A DNA stretch of 64,000 nt from Ferrovibrio terrae (GTDB taxonomy: Bacteria > Pseudomonadota > Alphaproteobacteria > Ferrovibrionales > Ferrovibrionaceae), in NCBI RefSeq assembly GCF_007197755.1, contig NZ_CP041636.1, positions 3,260,001 through 3,324,000 on the forward strand. Reading direction: 5' to 3'. Positions 38,925 through 46,799 of the stretch are shown here, piece by piece. Each line of letters opens with the position of its first letter. The stretch's first letter is position 1. The translations under genes and the position numbers were made by a program. The notes beneath the pieces were generated by a model, which saw only the letters and a program-made list of their open reading frames with translations, made no database searches and had not been told where the DNA came from.

Positions 38925-40175
38925 TTACTCCGCCGCGACGGCAGTCGTCTTCTTCGTGGAGGATTGCCGGATCGCGACTGCTGTCAGCGTGGTGAGCGCG
39001 AGCATTAAGGCCACGAACCACAGCACGTAGTCAGCACGGCCATGATCGAGCAGCAAGCCGATCACCAGCGGCGCGATCGCCGAACCGGCATCGAGGCCGG
39101 AATAGACGAAGCCGAAGACGCGGCCCGAGGCACCCTTGGGCGCAGCGCCGCGCACGATCAGGTCGCGCGACGGCGTGGTGAAGCCCTGCAGGAAGCCGGC
39201 CGCGGTAATGGCTGCCACCAGCGCGCCAGCGGGCAGGTCGAGATTGGCAATCAACAGGATCAGCGCTGCCGCGCCGAGCAGGCCGGAGATCACGATGGCT
39301 TCCAGCTTCACGCCCTTGTCCGCGACCCAGCCGCCGACCATCACGCCGGCGGACGCGCCAAGCAGGAAACCGGTCAGCGCCGTGGTCGCCAGTGCGAACG
39401 GCGTGGCATAGAGCGCCGCGAGCGTCGCCGGCAGGAAATTCTGTGTGCCAATCAGCGCGAATGACAGCAGCAGGAAATAACCGAAGCACATCACCACCGG
39501 CAGGCTGAGCAGGGGCCCAAGCGCCTCGGTTTTCTCACCGGCCTTGGTGGCTGCGCGCCGCGCGGCGCCGGCATCTTCCTTCAACAGGTCGCGGTTTAGC
39601 AGCAAGGCAGCAAGAATGGCGTAACCGACCAGCGCTGCGATGATGGGGGCGGCGCGCCAGCCGAGCATCGCTGCGCCGCCGGCCATCAGCACCGGCGCGA
39701 GGCCCCAGCCGAGATTGCCGCCCAGCGTATGTGTGCCATAGGCGCGGCCGAGCCGCTTCTGGTCGACCGAGGCATTGAGGATCGAGAAATCGGCAGGATG
39801 GAACACGCTGTTGCCTGCGCCAGCGAGAACAGCGACGGGCAGCAGCATCCAGTAGCTCGGCACCAGACCATAGAGCAGGATCGCAGTGCAGAAGAGGGCG
39901 AGGCCGCCAATCAGCACATTGCGCGCGCCGATACGGTCGACCAGGAAACCGGCCGGGGTCTGCAGCACGCCGGAGGTGACGTAGAACAGCGTCATTACCA
40001 GGCCAAGTTCGGTGTAGCTGACTGCGAAGTCGTTTTTCAGGAAGGGGAACAGCGGCGGCAGCACCAGTTGGAAGAAATGGCTGCAGCCATGCGCGACGCT
40101 GATGAGCGCCATCACCTTGATGTCGCGATTGGGAATGGAGGAGGGGCTGCCGGCGGGAATGGCGAAGTCGGTCAT
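38925..40175 (-). CDS. MFS transporter
   Basis: This 416-residue protein has 12 predicted transmembrane helices. Major facilitator features are GFLVDRIGARNVLIGG in the first loop and VGGWVADKGVKLEA in the second repeat. The order and the ASVDQKRLGRAYGTHTLGG segment resemble the FSR (fosmidomycin resistance) and related families, but substrate cannot be named. It is convergent with the OmpA-like gene and lies 130 bases from the terminator of the binding-protein gene. Confidence 0.88.
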   Translation of the reverse strand: MTDFAIPAGSPSSIPNRDIKVMALISVAHGCSHFFQLVLPPLFPFLKNDFAVSYTELGLVMTLFYVTSGVLQTPAGFLVDRIGARNVLIGGLALFCTAILLYGLVPSYWMLLPVAVLAGAGNSVFHPADFSILNASVDQKRLGRAYGTHTLGGNLGWGLAPVLMAGGAAMLGWRAAPIIAALVGYAILAALLLNRDLLKEDAGAARRAATKAGEKTEALGPLLSLPVVMCFGYFLLLSFALIGTQNFLPATLAALYATPFALATTALTGFLLGASAGVMVGGWVADKGVKLEAIVISGLLGAAALILLIANLDLPAGALVAAITAAGFLQGFTTPSRDLIVRGAAPKGASGRVFGFVYSGLDAGSAIAPLVIGLLLDHGRADYVLWFVALMLALTTLTAVAIRQSSTKKTTAVAAE

Positions 40176-40305: not shown

Positions 40306-40335
40306 AAAAAAGCGCGGGGCTTTGAGGCCCCGCGC
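40306..40335 (-). terminator. Rho-independent terminator of the ABC binding-protein gene
   Basis: GCGCGGGGC (40312-40320) pairs with GCCCCGCGC (40327-40335) around six bases, and a run of six T follows on the minus strand (40306-40311). It lies 38 bases beyond the stop of the binding-protein gene. Confidence 0.88.
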
Positions 40336-40373
40336 CGGTACTCAAACCTGACTGCCAGTAGCGTGGCAGCGGC

Positions 40374-41372
40374 TTACTTCTTCATCTTCACGGTCTTGTC
40401 GAGAAAGTCGTTGCTGTAGACCTTGGTGACGTCGAAGTCCTTCTCCATGCCGAAGTAGGTCTTCACCATGTCGTAGTCGTTCTGCATGCGCTTGGCGTCG
40501 AAGGCGCCGAGCGCGACGCCGGTGGTGGCCGGGTCGGTCATCAGTTCCTTGATGCGGTTCCACTGGTCGCGCTGGTTGGCTTCGTCCAGACCGCTGACGC
40601 CGGTCATCAGCGCCTTCAGGCAGGGGCTGACATCGGCGACGCAGGCGGCAAAGGCCTTCTGCGAGACCGACACGAACTTGGCGACTTTATCCTTGTTCTT
40701 GCCGAGGTATTCGCCGTTCACGATGATCGAGTTGCCATAAAGGTTGAGGCCGATATCGCGCCAGGCCAGGAAGCCGAGATCGGCGCCGAACTCGCGTACC
40801 TTCAGGTCATGTTCGTTGTAGAAATCGCTGGTGATGTCGATCGCCTTGGCCTTCAGTGACGCCACCTTGGCCTGCGGCGTGATGTTGACGAAGGTCACGC
40901 TGTCGGTGGCGATGCCGACCTGCTTGGCAAAGGCCGGCCACATCACGCGCGAGGCGTCGCCCGGCGGATTGCCCAGCTTCTTGCCGGGGAAGTCCTTCGC
41001 CCCAGTGATCCCGGAGCTCTTGAGCCAGTAGAAGCCCTGCGGCGAGTTGGCATAGACGGTCATCACCGCCACCACATCGGCGCCCTTGCTCTTGGCGACC
41101 AGCGCGGTGGCCATGTCGGCGATGGCAAATTCGGTGTTGGCCGCGCCCACGCGCTGGGCCGAAACGCCCGACCCCTTGCCGCTTTCGATATTCACATCCA
41201 GGCCAGCCTGCTCGTACCAGCCCTGCGCCTTGGCGTAGTAGTAGGGGGAGTGATCGGCGGTCGGCACCCAGTTCAGCAGCAGGTTAACCTTGTCCTTGGC
41301 CTGGGCGAGCGCGCCCCCGGCCGGCAGCAGGGCCGCCGCTACCGCGATGGCAAGAAGTCGACGTGATGTCAT
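40374..41372 (-). CDS. ABC transporter substrate-binding protein (NMT1/THI5-like)
   Basis: This 332-residue periplasmic protein has a signal peptide (MTSRRLL and following, cleaved near ALAQA). The mature chain opens VNLLLNWVPTADHSPYYYAKAQGWYEQAGLDVNI, the NMT1/THI5-like signature found in pyrimidine, taurine and sulfonate importers. The GKKLGNPPGDASRVMWPAFAK segment is the central hinge region. It belongs with the permease and ATPase at 42277 and 46011. It is transcribed away from the TetR gene from a promoter close to the shared operator. Ligand unknown. Confidence 0.9.
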   Translation of the reverse strand: MTSRRLLAIAVAAALLPAGGALAQAKDKVNLLLNWVPTADHSPYYYAKAQGWYEQAGLDVNIESGKGSGVSAQRVGAANTEFAIADMATALVAKSKGADVVAVMTVYANSPQGFYWLKSSGITGAKDFPGKKLGNPPGDASRVMWPAFAKQVGIATDSVTFVNITPQAKVASLKAKAIDITSDFYNEHDLKVREFGADLGFLAWRDIGLNLYGNSIIVNGEYLGKNKDKVAKFVSVSQKAFAACVADVSPCLKALMTGVSGLDEANQRDQWNRIKELMTDPATTGVALGAFDAKRMQNDYDMVKTYFGMEKDFDVTKVYSNDFLDKTVKMKK

Positions 41373-41436
41373 GATGGTCCCCTGTATGTTGTGATTCGGC
41401 CAAGTCTGGGCCCGGCCCCCGCCGGGTCTGAAAGAA

Positions 41437-41466
41437 ACTCTAGCCAGACCGCAGCGAACCGGTCAA
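41437..41466 (-). promoter_or_regulatory. Predicted promoter of the binding-protein gene
   Basis: On the minus strand TTGACC (41461-41466), 18 bases and TAGAGT (41437-41442). The TetR-type site at 41470-41493 lies just upstream of the -35. This is a pattern match only. Confidence 0.45.
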
Positions 41467-41469
41467 TAA

Positions 41470-41493
41470 TTAATCAACTAGTTGGATGATAAG
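41470..41493. promoter_or_regulatory. TetR-type operator, copy 1
   Basis: This 24-base site matches the site at 42209-42232 in 18 positions, including AATCAACT, GTTGG and TGAT. It contains the 10-bp palindrome CAACTAGTTG. It ends just before the TetR ribosome site and start, so it would block its own expression, and it lies beside the divergent binding-protein promoter. Confidence 0.7.
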
Positions 41494-41501
41494 AGATGAG
41501 T

Positions 41502-42185
41502 ATGGCAGGCCCTGCTGCAGATCGAGCCGCCTCCCGCGAAATGGGGGCCCGCGAAGACGGCGACGGACGCCGCCGCGACCCCGTGGCGACGAAAGCCGCA
41601 CTGTTGCGCGCGGCGGTGGCGGAATTCGCCGGCAAGGGCCTGGCCGGTGCTCGCATCGACGAGATTGCCCAGCGGGCCGGGGTCAACAAGCAACTCGTCT
41701 ATCACTACTTCGGCAGCAAGGACGACATTTACGCGGCGGCGCTGGAGACGGTGTATGCCGAGATCCGCGAACGCGAGCGTGGCTTGCATCTGGGCGATCT
41801 GCCGCCCGAAGCGGCGATGGAGCGTCTGATCGGCTTTTCCTTCGACTATCTCGCCGAGCACCCGGAATTCCTCGCGCTGCTGAATGATGAGAACCGCCAG
41901 GAAGCCCGCCATGTGCGCGGTTCGCAGCGGCTCGAGCAGATGCATTCGCCGCTGGTCAGCCTGATTCAGGAAACCATCGAGCGCGGTGCGAAGGAGGGCG
42001 TGTTTCGCGCCGATCTAGATCCGGTGCAGCTCTACATCTCGATTGCTGGCCTGTCGTATTTCTTCTTCTCGAACAACCGCACGCTGTCGGCCATTTTCGG
42101 TCGCGCGCTCGACAAGCCCAAGGCCGTGGCCGAACGCCGCCGCCATATTATCGCTTTCGCGATGGGCGCTTTACGGCCCGAATAG
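41502..42185 (+). CDS. TetR-family transcriptional regulator
   Basis: This 227-residue regulator has a polar tail of about 25 residues, then a TetR helix-turn-helix (TKAALLRAAVAEFAGKGLAGARIDEIAQRAGVNKQLVYHYF, about residues 29-70). The ligand-binding region follows, with LIGFSFDYLAEHPEFLALLNDENRQEA. The C-terminal part resembles the RutR/pyrimidine-type subgroup. ATG 41502 is preferred as AAGAG lies six bases upstream; an ATG at 41496 is too close to it. The two near-identical 24-base sites in front of this gene and of the transporter operon are its likely targets. Confidence 0.88.
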   Translation: MAGPAADRAASREMGAREDGDGRRRDPVATKAALLRAAVAEFAGKGLAGARIDEIAQRAGVNKQLVYHYFGSKDDIYAAALETVYAEIRERERGLHLGDLPPEAAMERLIGFSFDYLAEHPEFLALLNDENRQEARHVRGSQRLEQMHSPLVSLIQETIERGAKEGVFRADLDPVQLYISIAGLSYFFFSNNRTLSAIFGRALDKPKAVAERRRHIIAFAMGALRPE

Positions 42186-42208
42186 CGCCGATTTCAACGA
42201 TCCAGCTT

Positions 42209-42232
42209 CCAATCAACTGGTTGGTTGATTAA
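42209..42232. promoter_or_regulatory. TetR-type operator, copy 2
   Basis: AATCAAC (42211-42217) and GTTGATT (42224-42230) form perfect 7-bp arms around six bases. The site overlaps the predicted -35 of the transporter operon, so a bound repressor would block polymerase. It is an 18/24 match to the copy at 41470-41493. Confidence 0.75.
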
Positions 42233-42253
42233 CTCAAAACAGCCTGCTAGGCT
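42225..42253 (+). promoter_or_regulatory. Predicted promoter of the permease-epimerase-ATPase operon
   Basis: TTGATT (42225-42230), 17 bases and TAGGCT (42248-42253), 23 bases before the ATG, which is preceded by AGGAGGGGAG. The -35 lies within TetR operator copy 2. Confidence 0.5.
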
Positions 42254-42276
42254 GCCGTCAGCAGGAGGGGAGCCAT

Positions 42277-43074
42277 ATGGCCGCAGCCGAACCGGACACG
42301 CCGCAGGACAAGCCGAAAGGTCCTTACCTGCGCTGGCTGATGATCCTGGCGATCCATGTCGCCGCCATCATCCTGTGGGAACTCGCGGTTCGCGCCACCA
42401 AGCTGCCGGCCTTCATCCTGCCGGCGCCGAGCGCCATCTTCGCCACGCTGGCCAAGACCAACTACGCATGGGCGAGCAACACCTGGGTGACGGCGCAGGA
42501 AATCTACGGCGGCTATCTGCTGTCGGTGATCGCCGGCGTGGCGCTGGCGCTGATGTTCACCTGGTCGCGACTGCTGACGCTGCTGATGTTCCCGCTATTC
42601 ATCACGCTGAACATGATCCCGAAGGTCGCGCTGGGTCCGCTGATCATCGTCTGGTTCTCGTATGGCATTGGCACCAACATCCTGATCACCCTGTCGCTGT
42701 GCTTCTTCCCGATCCTGCTCACCACTGTACGCGGCCTGAAGGAAGTCGAGCCCGACCTGCTCGATCTGGTGAAATCGCTGAAGGGCTCGCAGTGGCAGAC
42801 CTTCATCTACATCCAGCTTCCAGGATCGTTGCCGTATCTGTTCTCCGGCATGAAGGTGGCGGCCATTCTGGCTGTTGCAGGCGCCGTGGTCGGTGAGTTC
42901 ATCTCGTCCGACAAGGGGCTTGGCTACCTGATGATCCAGGTGCAGGCCGCGCTCGATACGCCGGCCATGTTCATGGCCGTCATTCTCATTACCCTGCTCG
43001 GCATCGCGCTGTATCTGCTGGTGCTGCTGCTGGAACATCTGCTGGTTCGCAAGGATGCGAGGATTTCGTCATGA
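42277..43074 (+). CDS. ABC transporter permease (SsuC/TauC/ThiX type)
   Basis: This 265-residue inner-membrane protein has six predicted helices. The cytoplasmic EAA loop is in [32 protein letters not shown], the docking site for the ATPase. It pairs with the NMT1-like binding protein at 40374 and the ATPase at 46011. AGGAGGGGAG lies about 10 bases before the ATG. It is the first gene of a five-gene operon and overlaps the epimerase gene by four bases. Confidence 0.92.
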
Positions 43075-44135
43075 CCAAGCACGACATGAAAAAAGACCTC
43101 TGGCTCGACGATAGCGCGCTGCCGACCGGTTTTGCCGATGAAGCCGCGCTGGAAGAATTCATGACGCGGCCGAGCCGCGCGCTGGCTGCCGATCTTGAGG
43201 CCCTGGATGGTGACATCATGATCCTCGGCGTCGGCGGCAAGATGGGGCCGACCATGGCGCGTCTGGCCAAACGTGCGGCACCGAACAAGCGCGTGATCGG
43301 CGTGGCCCGCTTCAGCGAGAAGGGCCTCAAGGACGGCCTCGAAAGCCACGGCATCGAAACCATTGCTGCCGATCTGATGGATCGCACCGCCGTCGACAAG
43401 CTGCCGCGAGTGAAGAACGTGATCTTCATGGCTGGCCGCAAGTTCGGTGCCAGCGGCAATCAGGCGCTGACCTGGGCGATGAATGCCCATGTGCCGGCGC
43501 TGGTGGCGGAAAGCTTCAGCGATGCGCGCATCGTTGCCTTCTCGACCGGTTGCGTCTATCCCTTCGTGCCGGTCGCCAGCCAGGGCTCGACCGAGGAGAT
43601 GGCGCCCAATCCGCCGGGCGAATATGCGATGTCCTGCATCGGCCGTGAACGCATGTTCGAGCATTTCTCGCAGGTGCATAACACGCCAGGCCGGCTGTTC
43701 CGCCTGAACTACGCCATCGACCTGCGCTACGGCGTGCTGCATGACGTGGCCGCTTCGGTCATGCGTGGCGAACCGGTCGATGTCACCATGGGTCATGTCA
43801 ACGTGATCTGGCAGGGCGATGCCAATGCGCAGGCACTGCGCTGCCTGAAGGCCGCCACCGTTCCGACCACGCCGCTGAATATCACTGGCCCGGAAACCAT
43901 CGCCGTGCGCTGGCTGGCCGAAAGCTTTGGCAAGCGCTTTGGCAAAAAGGCGGTGATCACAGGCGAGGAAGCGCCGACCGCCTGGCTCAACAATGCCGCC
44001 GAAGCCGCGCGGCTGTTCGGCTATCCGCGCATTTCGCTGGCCAGCATGATGGACTGGGTGGCCGACTGGGTGTCGCGCAGCGGCCGCAGCCTCGGCAAGC
44101 CGACCCATTTCGAGGTGCGCGATGGCACCTATTAA
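43071..44135 (+). CDS. NAD-dependent epimerase/dehydratase-family protein with altered catalytic motif
   Basis: In this 354-residue extended-SDR protein, the Rossmann motif GVGGKMG (about residues 53-59) and [10 protein letters not shown] are clear. The catalytic YxxxK motif is changed: [12 protein letters not shown] keeps the Tyr but has Cys where Lys is expected. The remaining sequence ([15 protein letters not shown]-type segment and [11 protein letters not shown]) fits the family. It may bind NAD(P) yet use a different chemistry. It lies in the transporter operon with ATGA overlap upstream and 14-base overlap downstream, so it belongs to the pathway. Confidence 0.82.
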
Positions 44136-44937
44136 GGCGTTCGATATCGATCGTCTTGATAGCGCCGGTCTGCCCGGGGCGCTGGCGCTGTCGGCCGAGG
44201 CCGGCTGGAACCAGAGCGCGGATGACTGGCGCGTTTTTCTCGAACAGGGCCAGGTCTTCATCATTCGCGATGACGGTCGCATCGTTGCCACGGCCGCCAT
44301 CCTGCCTTATGGCGATTTTGCCTGGATCAGCATGGTGCTGGTCACCGCCAGTCATCGCCAGCGCGGGCTCGGTACGCTCCTGCTGCGTCACTGTATTGCC
44401 GAATTGCAACGCAGGGGCTGCACGCCCTATCTCGATGCCACGCCGGCCGGTGAAAATGTTTACCTGCCGCTGGGCTTCCGGCCGGTGATGGAGATCACCC
44501 GCTGGCAGGGCCGGGGTGCGGGGCTGGCGGTGCCGGCGTCACTGGCCGAGCTCGATGCCTGCCTGGCGCGCGACACGATTGCCTTCGGGGCGAGCCGCGA
44601 ACCGCTGCTGCGCGCTTTCCTGAGCGGTGTTCCGGAACTCGCGATCCGCAGCAACAACGGCTTCGTTGCCGCCCGCAGCGGCCGGCTCGCCATCCAGATC
44701 GGACCGCTTGGCGCCGACAGTGAGGCCGATGCTCTGGCGGTGCTCCGCACGGCGCTCGATCGCGTGACCGGCCCGGTCTTCCTCGATGTGCCGAACCGCT
44801 GGACCATGCTCAGCGACGAACTGAAATCGCGCGGCTTCACGGTGCAGCGCGGCTTCCGCCGCATGGCACTGCATACATCAAAGTGCAATGGCAATCCCGA
44901 CCAGAGCTTCGTGCTGGCCGGGCCTGAATTCGGATAG
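44122..44937 (+). CDS. GNAT-family acetyltransferase with C-terminal extension
   Basis: In this 271-residue protein, the N-terminal 140 residues form a GNAT domain with the acetyl-CoA motif [22 protein letters not shown] (about 75-95) and the [19 protein letters not shown] segment. The C-terminal 130 residues (from about 145) form a second, degenerate GNAT-like or SCP2-like part ending in [13 protein letters not shown]. Two-domain acetyltransferases of this size are found in uncharacterised catabolic clusters. The 5' end overlaps the epimerase gene. Confidence 0.85.
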
Positions 44938-44952
44938 CAGGGGACGTCAATC

Positions 44953-46014
44953 ATGGGTTTGCATCATTCCAAACTGCCGGCTGATGTTCTGGCCAATCTG
45001 CGCAAGGGCGTGGCGATCCCCGCACACCCGCTGGCGCTGGATGCCAACCGAAAGTTCAACCGCAAACGCCAGCGCGCGCTGAGCCGCTACTATGTCGATG
45101 CCGGTTCTGGTGGCCTTGCGGTCGGCGTGCACACGACGCAGTTCGCCATCCGCGAGGTCGGGCTCTATGAGCCGGTGCTGGCCGCCGCGATGGAAGACGC
45201 CAAAGCCTGGACCGATCGTCCGCTCGTCATGGTCGGCGGTCTGGCCGGCAAGACCGCGCAGGCCGTGAAGGAAGCGCAGACCGCCGTGAAGCTCGGCTAC
45301 CATGCCGGCCTGCTCAGCCTGGCCGCCATGAAAGACGCCGGCGTCGATGCCATCATCGCGCATTGCGAAGCCGTGGCGGCTGAAATCCCGCTGGTCGGCT
45401 TCTACCTGCAGCCCGCCGTCGGCGGCGTGGTGCTGGATGCCGAATTCTGGCGGCGGTTCGCCAGTATCGACAACGTGATCGCCATCAAGGTGGCGCCGTT
45501 CCACCGTTATCGCACGCTGGATGTGATGCGCGGTGTTGCGGCGGCGCGGGCCGAGAAGCGTATCTCGCTCTATACCGGCAACGACGACCATATCGTGCTC
45601 GACCTCACCATTCCCTTCACGGTGAAGCGCGATGACGAGACCGTGAACCTGCGCTTCGTCGGCGGCCTGCTTGGCCACTGGTCGGTCTGGACCCAGCAGG
45701 CGGTCAAGCTGCTCGACAAGGCCCATGCCGCTGTCGCTTCCGGCAGCGTGTCGCCCGAACTGCTCGGCCTCGATGCGCGCGTCACCGACTGCAACGCCGC
45801 CTTCTTCGATGTTGCCAATGATTTCCACGGCTGCATCGCCGGCTGCCACGAGATCCTGCGCCGTCAGGGCCTGCTGGAAGGCATATGGTGCCTCGACCCG
45901 CAGGAAGGTCTCAGCCCCGGCCAGGCCGCACTGCTGGATCGCGTCAGCCGCGAGCACGCCGACCTGTCGGACGACGCCTTCGTGAAGGCCAATCTGGAAC
46001 GGTGGCTGTCATGA
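44953..46014 (+). CDS. Dihydrodipicolinate synthase (DapA/NanA) family aldolase
   Basis: This 353-residue TIM-barrel protein is longer than biosynthetic DapA (about 290). The Schiff-base lysine is in NVIAIKVAPF and the conserved Tyr in GFYLQP (in place of YNxP). The substrate-binding segment near the start has GSGGLAVGVHTTQFA, in place of the usual GTTGE. It should be a class I aldolase or hydrolyase acting on a pyruvate-type donor. It lies between the acetyltransferase and the ATPase gene, which it overlaps by four bases. Substrate not determined. Confidence 0.87.
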   Translation: MGLHHSKLPADVLANLRKGVAIPAHPLALDANRKFNRKRQRALSRYYVDAGSGGLAVGVHTTQFAIREVGLYEPVLAAAMEDAKAWTDRPLVMVGGLAGKTAQAVKEAQTAVKLGYHAGLLSLAAMKDAGVDAIIAHCEAVAAEIPLVGFYLQPAVGGVVLDAEFWRRFASIDNVIAIKVAPFHRYRTLDVMRGVAAARAEKRISLYTGNDDHIVLDLTIPFTVKRDDETVNLRFVGGLLGHWSVWTQQAVKLLDKAHAAVASGSVSPELLGLDARVTDCNAAFFDVANDFHGCIAGCHEILRRQGLLEGIWCLDPQEGLSPGQAALLDRVSREHADLSDDAFVKANLERWLS

Positions 46015-46799
46015 TCACGCAGACTGCTGCTACAGGCAGCGCGCCGTTCATTCATCTCGAGAACGTCCGCAAGACCTATCGCGGTCGCGGCAAGGAGTTC
46101 GTCGCCGTTTCCAATGTCACCTTCGATGTCTACGAGGGCGATCTGGTCTCTCTCGTGGGCCCGTCGGGCTGCGGCAAGACGACGGTGCTGAAGATCCTCG
46201 CCGACCTTCATTCGGCAGATGACGGCTGCAAGGTCGAGATCGGTGGCGGCACGCCGTTCACGCCGGGGCGTGACGTAGGCATGGTCTTCCAGCAGGCGTT
46301 GCTGCTGAAGTGGCGCACGATTATCGACAACGTGCTGCTGCCGGCCGATATCCTCGGCCTGCCGCGCAAGGCCGCGAAAGCGCGCGCGCGCGACCTGCTC
46401 GCCATGGTCGGTCTCGCCGGGTTCGAGAGCAAATATCCGTATGAACTTTCCGGCGGCATGCAGCAGCGCGCCGCCATTGCGCGTGCGCTGGTGCATGATC
46501 CGAAGCTGATCCTGATGGACGAGCCGTTCGGCGCTCTGGATGCGCTGACGCGCGAGAAGATGAACCTCGAGATGCTGCGCATCTGGCAGGAGAGCCGCAA
46601 GACCATTCTGTTCGTCACCCACAGCATCCAGGAAGCGGTCTTCCTCGGCTCGCGCTGCGCGGTGCTGACGGCCGGTCCGGCGCGCATGGCCGATTTCTTC
46701 GAGATCGATCTGCCATTCCCGCGCGCGCTGGATGTGAAGACCACCGAGAAATTCGGCGATTATACCAAGCGCATCTACCGCCAGCTCGGGATGGACTGA
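46011..46799 (+). CDS. ABC transporter ATP-binding protein
   Basis: This 262-residue ATPase of the nitrate/sulfonate/taurine type has Walker A GPSGCGKTT, signature LSGGMQQRAA, Walker B LILMDEPFGALD and a His switch in FVTHSIQEA. It powers the importer formed by the 42277 permease and 40374 binding protein. It starts inside the preceding aldolase gene (ATGA overlap) and is the last gene of the operon. Confidence 0.94.
   Translation: MITQTAATGSAPFIHLENVRKTYRGRGKEFVAVSNVTFDVYEGDLVSLVGPSGCGKTTVLKILADLHSADDGCKVEIGGGTPFTPGRDVGMVFQQALLLKWRTIIDNVLLPADILGLPRKAAKARARDLLAMVGLAGFESKYPYELSGGMQQRAAIARALVHDPKLILMDEPFGALDALTREKMNLEMLRIWQESRKTILFVTHSIQEAVFLGSRCAVLTAGPARMADFFEIDLPFPRALDVKTTEKFGDYTKRIYRQLGMD

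Follow-up and report, generated by a model that had tools for sequence, protein, structure and literature searches.

A seven-gene import and lyase cluster of Ferrovibrio terrae probably forms part of a larger conserved pathway

To which pathway, if any, does a compact cluster of seven genes in the alphaproteobacterium Ferrovibrio terrae belong? The genes lie at positions 40374-46799 of a 64,000-nucleotide stretch (contig NZ_CP041636.1, positions 3,260,001 to 3,324,000; hereafter the window), and a sequence-only reading of them had proposed an undescribed route in which a small nitrogenous or sugar-acid compound is imported, acetylated and split by an aldolase to pyruvate. Here we report that the conserved core of this cluster is a pair of genes, encoding an atypical short-chain dehydrogenase/reductase (SDR) and a DapA-like lyase, and that the earlier interpretation was correct in its main lines yet too narrow: the cluster is probably a piece of a larger, conserved pathway. 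The full model, in which the window operon and a second one together make up an undescribed catabolic pathway and which covers import, enzymes and regulation, is the account that we favor, if by a little more than an even chance. The seven genes are the following.

40374..41372, minus strand: NMT1/SsuA-like ATP-binding cassette (ABC) substrate-binding protein (SBP); PF09084, 146.7 bits; divergent from tetR
41496..42185, plus strand: TetR-family regulator; TetR_N and TetR_C_29
42277..43074, plus strand: ABC permease; BPD_transp_1
43071..44135, plus strand: atypical extended SDR ('epimerase'); Epimerase PF01370, 32.5 bits, cut-off 20.9
44122..44937, plus strand: two-domain GNAT acetyltransferase; PF00583 at residues 35-114, PF18014 at residues 151-262
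44953..46014, plus strand: DapA-like lyase, class I (aldolase or dehydratase) of the dihydrodipicolinate synthase/N-acetylneuraminate lyase (DHDPS/NAL) superfamily; DHDPS PF00701, 30.7 bits, cut-off 22.1
46011..46799, plus strand: ABC transporter ATPase; ABC_tran; start placed at the ATGA overlap

Pfam and NCBIfam profile scans confirmed all seven genes at these positions, with the domains and families that the sequence-only reading had assigned to them. On the plus strand, the permease and SDR genes overlap by 4 bp and the SDR and GNAT genes by 14 bp, a 15 bp gap separates the GNAT and lyase genes, and the lyase gene shares a 4 bp ATGA overlap with the ATPase gene, which most likely starts at 46011 rather than at 45885. 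The earlier description as one tightly overlapping operon holds for these five genes and fails for the SBP gene, which runs divergently from tetR on the minus strand and so lies outside. Spacers of 123 and 91 bases separate tetR from the SBP and permease genes, respectively. Opposite the lyase and ABC genes there are antisense open reading frames (ORFs), which we regard as spurious frames of high-GC genes. A major facilitator superfamily (MFS) transporter gene (38925-40175) adjoins the cluster; since it was seen near the SDR/lyase pair only in Ferrovibrio loci (L036-L038 and L068), we left it out.

The cluster is more than a chance arrangement. A genome-neighborhood comparison, which the sequence-only reading had suggested as a check, indeed revealed conserved co-occurrence: the exact order (SBP on the minus strand, then TetR, permease, SDR, GNAT, lyase and ATPase on the plus strand) was present in 35 of 112 loci retrieved via the DapA-like protein. 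These loci comprised 80 named loci, biased to close relatives because they are the best 80 of at least 591, and 32 further loci; the sets L036-L067 and L068-L147 partly overlap (e.g. L036/L068, L039/L073, L042/L117 and L047/L101), and locus counts are not independent. Nor are the 35 exact-order loci: 19 carry the name Bradyrhizobium, with L088 and L145 assigned to Bradyrhizobium diazoefficiens, and there are genomes that count twice. The DapA-like protein occurred in 14 of 18 genomes of the same order, in 24 of 289 of the class (identity at least 62%) and in 12 of 398 of the phylum, and was 98% identical in another Ferrovibrio genome. Among the 61 named loci of at least 16 kb, matches were found for the SDR in 59, GNAT in 48, TetR in 43, and the ATPase, permease and SBP in 50, 46 and 43, respectively, the ABC counts including unrelated low-identity ABC genes. 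The same 61 loci yielded matches to an enolase-type protein (21), a xylose-isomerase-like protein (TIM9; 19), a tripartite-transporter SBP (18), an amidase (11) and DUF993 (7). On a plasmid of Sulfitobacter dubius (L155:4368-10856), the exact operon is flanked on either side by a ParDE-type toxin-antitoxin pair and IS110 transposases are found farther upstream, a setting that suggests horizontal spread.

Profiles of the lyase (A1) and of the SDR (A2) matched the identical 12 of 398 Pseudomonadota genomes, none of which carried only one of the two; the genomes fall into 6 of 213 genera, the same six for both proteins (genus-level p 8e-12, with deeper kinship ignored). Alignment A1 consisted of the window lyase and 21 of the 35 loci from the order and class genome searches, omitting, by no strict rule, L001, L003, L009, L010, L012, L014 (stop), L016, L017, L021, L023, L030, L031, L032 and L034; alignment A2 had 13 rows with a cleanly called SDR frame. 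In 10 of the 12 genomes the two genes are less than 1 kb apart; in G608 the genes of another transporter lie between them and the distance is about 6 kb, and in G045 they are unlinked. The SDR was absent from the retrieved stretch at 12 of the 112 loci. Seven of these come from six genomes that were searched whole, and all six have the SDR elsewhere, as does G045 (L057); in G670 it is split into three fragments on two contigs. Furthermore, among the 20 plasmid records matched, each of the eight regions examined had the two genes side by side or one gene apart. Six of these regions are outside the Pseudomonadota, in Rhodococcus, Glaciihabitans, Streptomyces, Paenibacillus, Mesobacillus and Aquisphaera (Actinomycetota, Bacillota and Planctomycetota), and the neighbors of the pair in the plasmid regions include CUT1 ABC, Gfo/Idh, sugar phosphate isomerase and hydroxyacid dehydrogenase genes together with LacI, IclR and ROK regulators.

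What kind of enzymes make up this pair? The predicted structure of the lyase (predicted local distance difference test, pLDDT, 93.1) has the DHDPS fold, with Z-scores of 31.1-32.5 over about 290 residues among the 50 matches listed, the top alignment among them covering 296 residues at Z 32.5 and a root-mean-square deviation of 2.4. The protein combines the Pfam DHDPS barrel with a Schiff-base lysine (K179, aligned with the DHDPS lysine and kept in 120 of 120 loci) and a conserved active-site tyrosine (Y151, kept in 118 of 120, with Ala in L148 and Ser in L150), and thereby has the features of the DHDPS/NAL superfamily, including DapA, NanA, KdgA, KdgD and KdaD, which likewise are TIM barrels with these residues. 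Given the invariant Schiff-base lysine and the predicted fold, the lyase is likely a class I aldolase-type enzyme. It differs from known superfamily members in its length (353 amino acids, compared with about 290-330 for the solved relatives listed), in its co-occurrence with an SDR, and in carrying a valine (Val156; Val in 117 of 120 loci) in place of the DapA arginine (Arg138) that binds carboxylate. Its best Foldseek match, 3eb2, is 22-23% identical, and it meets no NCBIfam subfamily cut-off (dapA TIGR00674, 24.6 vs 206.15 bits; KdgD TIGR03249, 20.9 vs 373.95; NanA TIGR00683, 17.6 vs 382), nor was there a KdgA or KdaD model among its NCBIfam matches. The portion of PMC13398020 available to us places both aldolases and two dehydratase subgroups in the superfamily, so that aldol cleavage and dehydration are both possible; of the earlier claim of aldol cleavage to pyruvate, the aldolase-type enzyme is likely to stand, with dehydration also conceivable as the reaction. 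According to the same portion, KdaD has a glutamate at the tyrosine position, in contrast to the tyrosine of our lyase, and some superfamily members work in non-phosphorylative sugar-acid pathways (PMC13398020 and PMC9795676, both in their available portions).

The SDR is not an ordinary member of its family. Its model (pLDDT 84.8) is nearest to TerB (Z 27.0, about 21% identity), an NADP-dependent oxidoreductase according to the title of entry 6d2v, and it shares with the extended SDRs GalE, RmlB and TerB the predicted fold, the GxxGxxG motif (G53, G56 and G59 in 106 of 108 loci, the motif lying outside the match span in the other two) and the active-site Ser and Tyr, conserved as S158 and Y185. 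At the position of the YxxxK lysine, residue 189, which aligns with the catalytic lysine of 3ehe (GalE) and of TerB, those enzymes have Lys, whereas the cluster SDR has Cys in 106 loci, Val in two and Lys in none of the 108, and the catalytic lysine is thus lost. To our knowledge, no known DHDPS/NAL partner resembles a lysine-less SDR. Val189 of the SDR and the loss of Y151 in the lyase coincide in the same two loci, from Rhodococcus (L148) and Glaciihabitans (L150); because both proteins are altered together, they may act on linked intermediates, which is only a hint given two cases from one phylum. Near the pair, these two Actinomycetota loci carry genes for a CoA transferase, an enoyl-CoA hydratase and a flavin adenine dinucleotide (FAD) oxidoreductase.

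The gene set of the sequence-only reading is probably incomplete, as a second operon elsewhere in the same genome probably belongs to the same pathway:

about 563,580-573,000 of the own genome (L170:7083-16504), outside the window: second operon

In transcription order, the operon, at about 563.6-572.2 kb, encodes a TetR regulator, a tripartite transporter (SBP, TctB-like and TctA, the TctB-like gene being below the Pfam cut-off), a xylose-isomerase-like protein, an enolase-type protein, a Gfo/Idh protein, a DUF993 protein and another xylose-isomerase-like protein; the enolase-type and xylose-isomerase-like genes at 566.8-569.0 kb are about 2.7 Mb from the window cluster (contig coordinates). 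Carboxyltransferase-domain genes (CT_A_B and CT_C_D), which we take to be 5-oxoprolinase-like, lie on one side, and ureD and, as judged by eye, probable urea-transport genes on the other. Six of six other genomes, chosen for their matches and including three of genus g229, presumably Bradyrhizobium-like, carried in this order genes for TetR, an NMT1-type ABC system, and enolase-type, Gfo/Idh, DUF993 and xylose-isomerase-like proteins, and three loci (L103, L117 and L144) united all five second-operon enzymes with the SDR/lyase pair at one locus. DUF993 was present in 11 of the 12 pair genomes vs 36 of 398 overall (genus-level Fisher p 2e-5), and the enolase-type gene in 10 of 12 vs 15 of 398 (genus-level Fisher p 6e-6). 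The enolase-type protein (L170:10255-11691 and orthologues) has K230, K232, D263, E298, D323, E324 and K346 invariant in 10 sequences, a KxK motif with a later Lys that is presumably the pattern of the muconate-lactonizing subgroup. Its Pfam MR_MLE_C match is marginal (28.8 bits in L044 and 34.5 in the own genome, cut-off 29.4), and the one orthologue searched gave no solved relative at E 0.001. The DUF993 proteins (L170:7916-9073 and orthologues) contain invariant IK and YTGDD stretches that, judged by eye, resemble those of the DapA-like lyase.

How might uptake and regulation fit in? Like the SsuABC, TauABC and ThiXYZ types of NMT1 importer, the cluster importer consists of an SBP, a single permease and an ATPase, and it differs from them in falling below every curated NCBIfam cut-off listed, including those of SsuA_fam (TIGR01728, 54.7 vs 163.5 for the SBP), SsuC, TauC and the taurine ATPase. 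The nearest solved relatives of the SBP are 4nmy, THI5, THI13 and 3ix1, among them a formyl-aminopyrimidine binding protein. The importer, which the sequence-only reading had made a defining part, is replaced elsewhere near the pair by tripartite tricarboxylate, CUT1, CUT2-like (by eye) or MFS transporters. Its further proposal of import genes and a probably catabolic operon under a TetR regulator gained support. The best NCBIfam model of this regulator is RutR (TIGR03613, 51.7 vs a cut-off of 368), and its gene is flanked by two palindromes; a terminator-like element was also noted in the region:

41473..41490, no strand: palindromic operator-like site ATCAACTAGTTGGATGAT in the SBP-tetR gap; pattern ATCAACCANNTGGTTGAT with 2 mismatches; same position in some relatives
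42212..42229, no strand: palindromic operator-like site ATCAACTGGTTGGTTGAT in the tetR-permease gap; pattern ATCAACCANNTGGTTGAT
40311..40336, minus strand: terminator-like hairpin and T tail 3' of the SBP gene; consensus match only and weak (2 in the region vs a mean of 4.3 in shuffles)

With up to three mismatches, the pattern ATCAACCANNTGGTTGAT has two matches in the 64-kb window, both flanking tetR, where 0.10 were expected. It occurred in 50 of 74 loci with a TetR gene (beside tetR in 46, by reading) vs 2 of 38 without; some of the counted loci had also served to define the consensus. The own genome holds 35 positions at up to three mismatches, vs 3 for a reversed-pattern control, and five positions with two mismatches, two of which are in the cluster. 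Another palindrome-like site, at 1,357,577, was set aside as a regulon candidate: the ORFs on either side of it looked unrelated by eye, and a copper-type ATPase lies downstream of it. Through the two sites in the cluster, TetR may regulate its own gene.

The acetylation step of the sequence-only reading fared less well. The GNAT protein was matched in only 48 of the 61 long named loci and is the most divergent of the cluster enzymes (identity no higher than 52% in 78 of 83 matches), and because it is both divergent and not universal, acetylation is more likely accessory, an obligatory step being unsupported. Still other genes of some clusters, encoding PhyH, MetE-like, FAD oxidoreductase, amidase and (by eye) nitrilase-like proteins, were too patchy to be assigned; 21 Bradyrhizobium-type loci had been removed before the extra genes were clustered.

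Taking these observations together, we infer the following substrate class, order of steps, products and regulation for a pathway that probably joins the window operon and the second operon. TetR would probably repress both divergent units of the window via the paired palindromes and be released by the substrate or a metabolite. The NMT1-type ABC system may import a small, probably anionic, sugar-like compound, such as a polyhydroxylated carboxylic acid, a cyclitol acid or an amide. The second operon would supply an enolase-superfamily enzyme, a Gfo/Idh-type oxidoreductase, two xylose-isomerase-like proteins and the DUF993 protein, which might carry out epimerisation, oxidation and dehydration before the SDR and the lyase act. 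The SDR, probably NAD(P)-binding and without the catalytic lysine, would act in an obligate pair with the lyase, and the latter would bind a 2-keto acid as a Schiff base and split or dehydrate it, most likely to pyruvate and an aldehyde, or to a related 2-keto product; GNAT would be accessory.

Several observations weigh against this two-operon account. At least one second-operon gene was near the pair in only 26 of the 61 long named loci, and since, of the genomes that lack the pair, 25 have DUF993 and five have the enolase-type gene, the second operon is independent of the pair; conversely, G083 has no DUF993 match, and G045 and G608 have no enolase-type match. No palindrome (up to three mismatches) was found beside the TetR gene of the second operon in the seven loci scanned, the one three-mismatch match, in L173, being located away from that gene, which gives no support to common regulation of both operons; similarly, 24 of the 74 TetR loci of the window type are without a site. 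DUF993 as a second DHDPS-like aldolase is no more than an idea, the profile comparison with the lyase giving a probability of 2% and thus no support for homology. In addition, 7 of the 12 pair genomes come from one genus, and the whole-genome check for the SDR covered 8 of the 12 SDR-less loci, the short loci L062, L072, L131 and L147 being outside it. Finally, the imported compound may differ by species, given the varying transporter type, and the chemistry may vary as well, since Tyr151 is Ala or Ser in L148 and L150.

Could the pair belong to a more familiar type of metabolism? The lyase might be an ordinary paralogue of DapA, NanA, 2-keto-3-deoxygluconate (KDG) aldolase, KdgD or L-2-keto-3-deoxyarabonate (L-KDA) dehydratase working in a known sugar-acid pathway with swapped neighbors, as its superfamily fold, Schiff-base lysine and sugar-acid-type neighbors would allow. 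We consider this unlikely in view of NCBIfam scores far below the dapA, KdgD and nanA cut-offs, the Val at the DapA Arg position in 117 of 120 loci, the 22-23% identity of the best Foldseek match and a partner SDR lacking the catalytic Lys, unlike any partner known to us. An anabolic role, in which the importer brings a precursor and the pair synthesizes or modifies a sugar-like metabolite, e.g. through an aldol condensation that uses pyruvate, would agree with the reversibility of DHDPS-type aldolases, with an SDR model nearest to nucleotide-sugar epimerases/dehydratases and the biosynthetic oxidoreductase TerB, and with a single glycosyltransferase gene that the Sulfitobacter plasmid carries about 2.8 kb beyond the operon. 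However, no glycosyl- or nucleotidyl-transferase was recognised inside the clusters, the uptake-type transporters and local TetR, LacI, IclR and ROK regulators are typical of catabolism, and the distribution (12 of 398 genomes) is patchy, all of which leaves this role quite unlikely.

The transporter and regulator, taken by themselves, suggest other substrates. Scavenging of a pyrimidine or thiamin precursor, with enzymes that modify the base, would account for the NMT1/THI5-like SBP (PF09084, 146.7 bits), for its solved relatives and for RutR as the best model of TetR; the RutR and SsuA_fam cut-offs are far off, however, no thiamin or pyrimidine gene was among the identified genes of the neighborhood (in which not every ORF was identified), and elsewhere the pair adjoins sugar and carboxylate transporters, making this very unlikely. 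Uptake and desulfonation of an aliphatic sulfonate or another organosulfur compound, to which the resemblance of the transporter to SsuABC and TauABC might point, seems highly improbable, as the window operon encodes neither a monooxygenase nor a desulfonase and the SsuA_fam, SsuC, TauC and taurine-ATPase cut-offs were all missed.

The two-operon catabolic pathway also differs from the known routes that it most resembles, namely non-phosphorylative sugar-acid pathways of the Weimberg/Dahms type and inositol-type pathways with Gfo/Idh and xylose-isomerase-like enzymes. Dehydrogenase-, dehydratase- and DHDPS-type enzymes are common to it and the former, and Gfo/Idh and AP_endonuc_2 proteins, also found in the second operon, to it and the latter; it is set apart from both by the muconate-lactonizing-like KxK enolase-type protein and DUF993 of the second operon and by a recurrent set without a kinase or an aldehyde dehydrogenase. 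The available portion of PMC11778176 describes a yagEF/XynR-type operon, likewise a regulated sugar-acid operon with a DHDPS-family protein, YagE, the partner of which is a D-xylonate dehydratase and not an SDR, and which has no NMT1 ABC system; that of PMC9608346 reports a PEG-induced Arthrobacter 'dihydrodipicolinate synthase family protein', with no pathway given. The cluster is not described in the available portions of PMC13398020, PMC9795676, PMC9608346, PMC11778176 and PMC10434189. In line with the sequence-only reading, which knew of no characterised pathway with this set, the literature searched (partly best-ranked matches only, with subscription papers outside) contained no described pathway with this gene set and no match for DUF993.

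Our findings tentatively suggest, at slightly less than an even chance, a catabolic module that spans several phyla, with a lysine-less SDR and a new DHDPS subfamily as its obligate core, a second, DUF993-containing operon feeding it in many Pseudomonadota, and at least one new type of reaction. The co-occurring SDR/lyase pair offers a compact and clearly bounded target for enzymology. If the proposal is true, it would mean a new degradation route for numerous Pseudomonadota of soil and rhizosphere (Bradyrhizobium, Ramlibacter, Mesorhizobium and others), with the core pair in three more phyla; it would also give DUF993 a pathway context and make the function of an SDR without its catalytic lysine testable.

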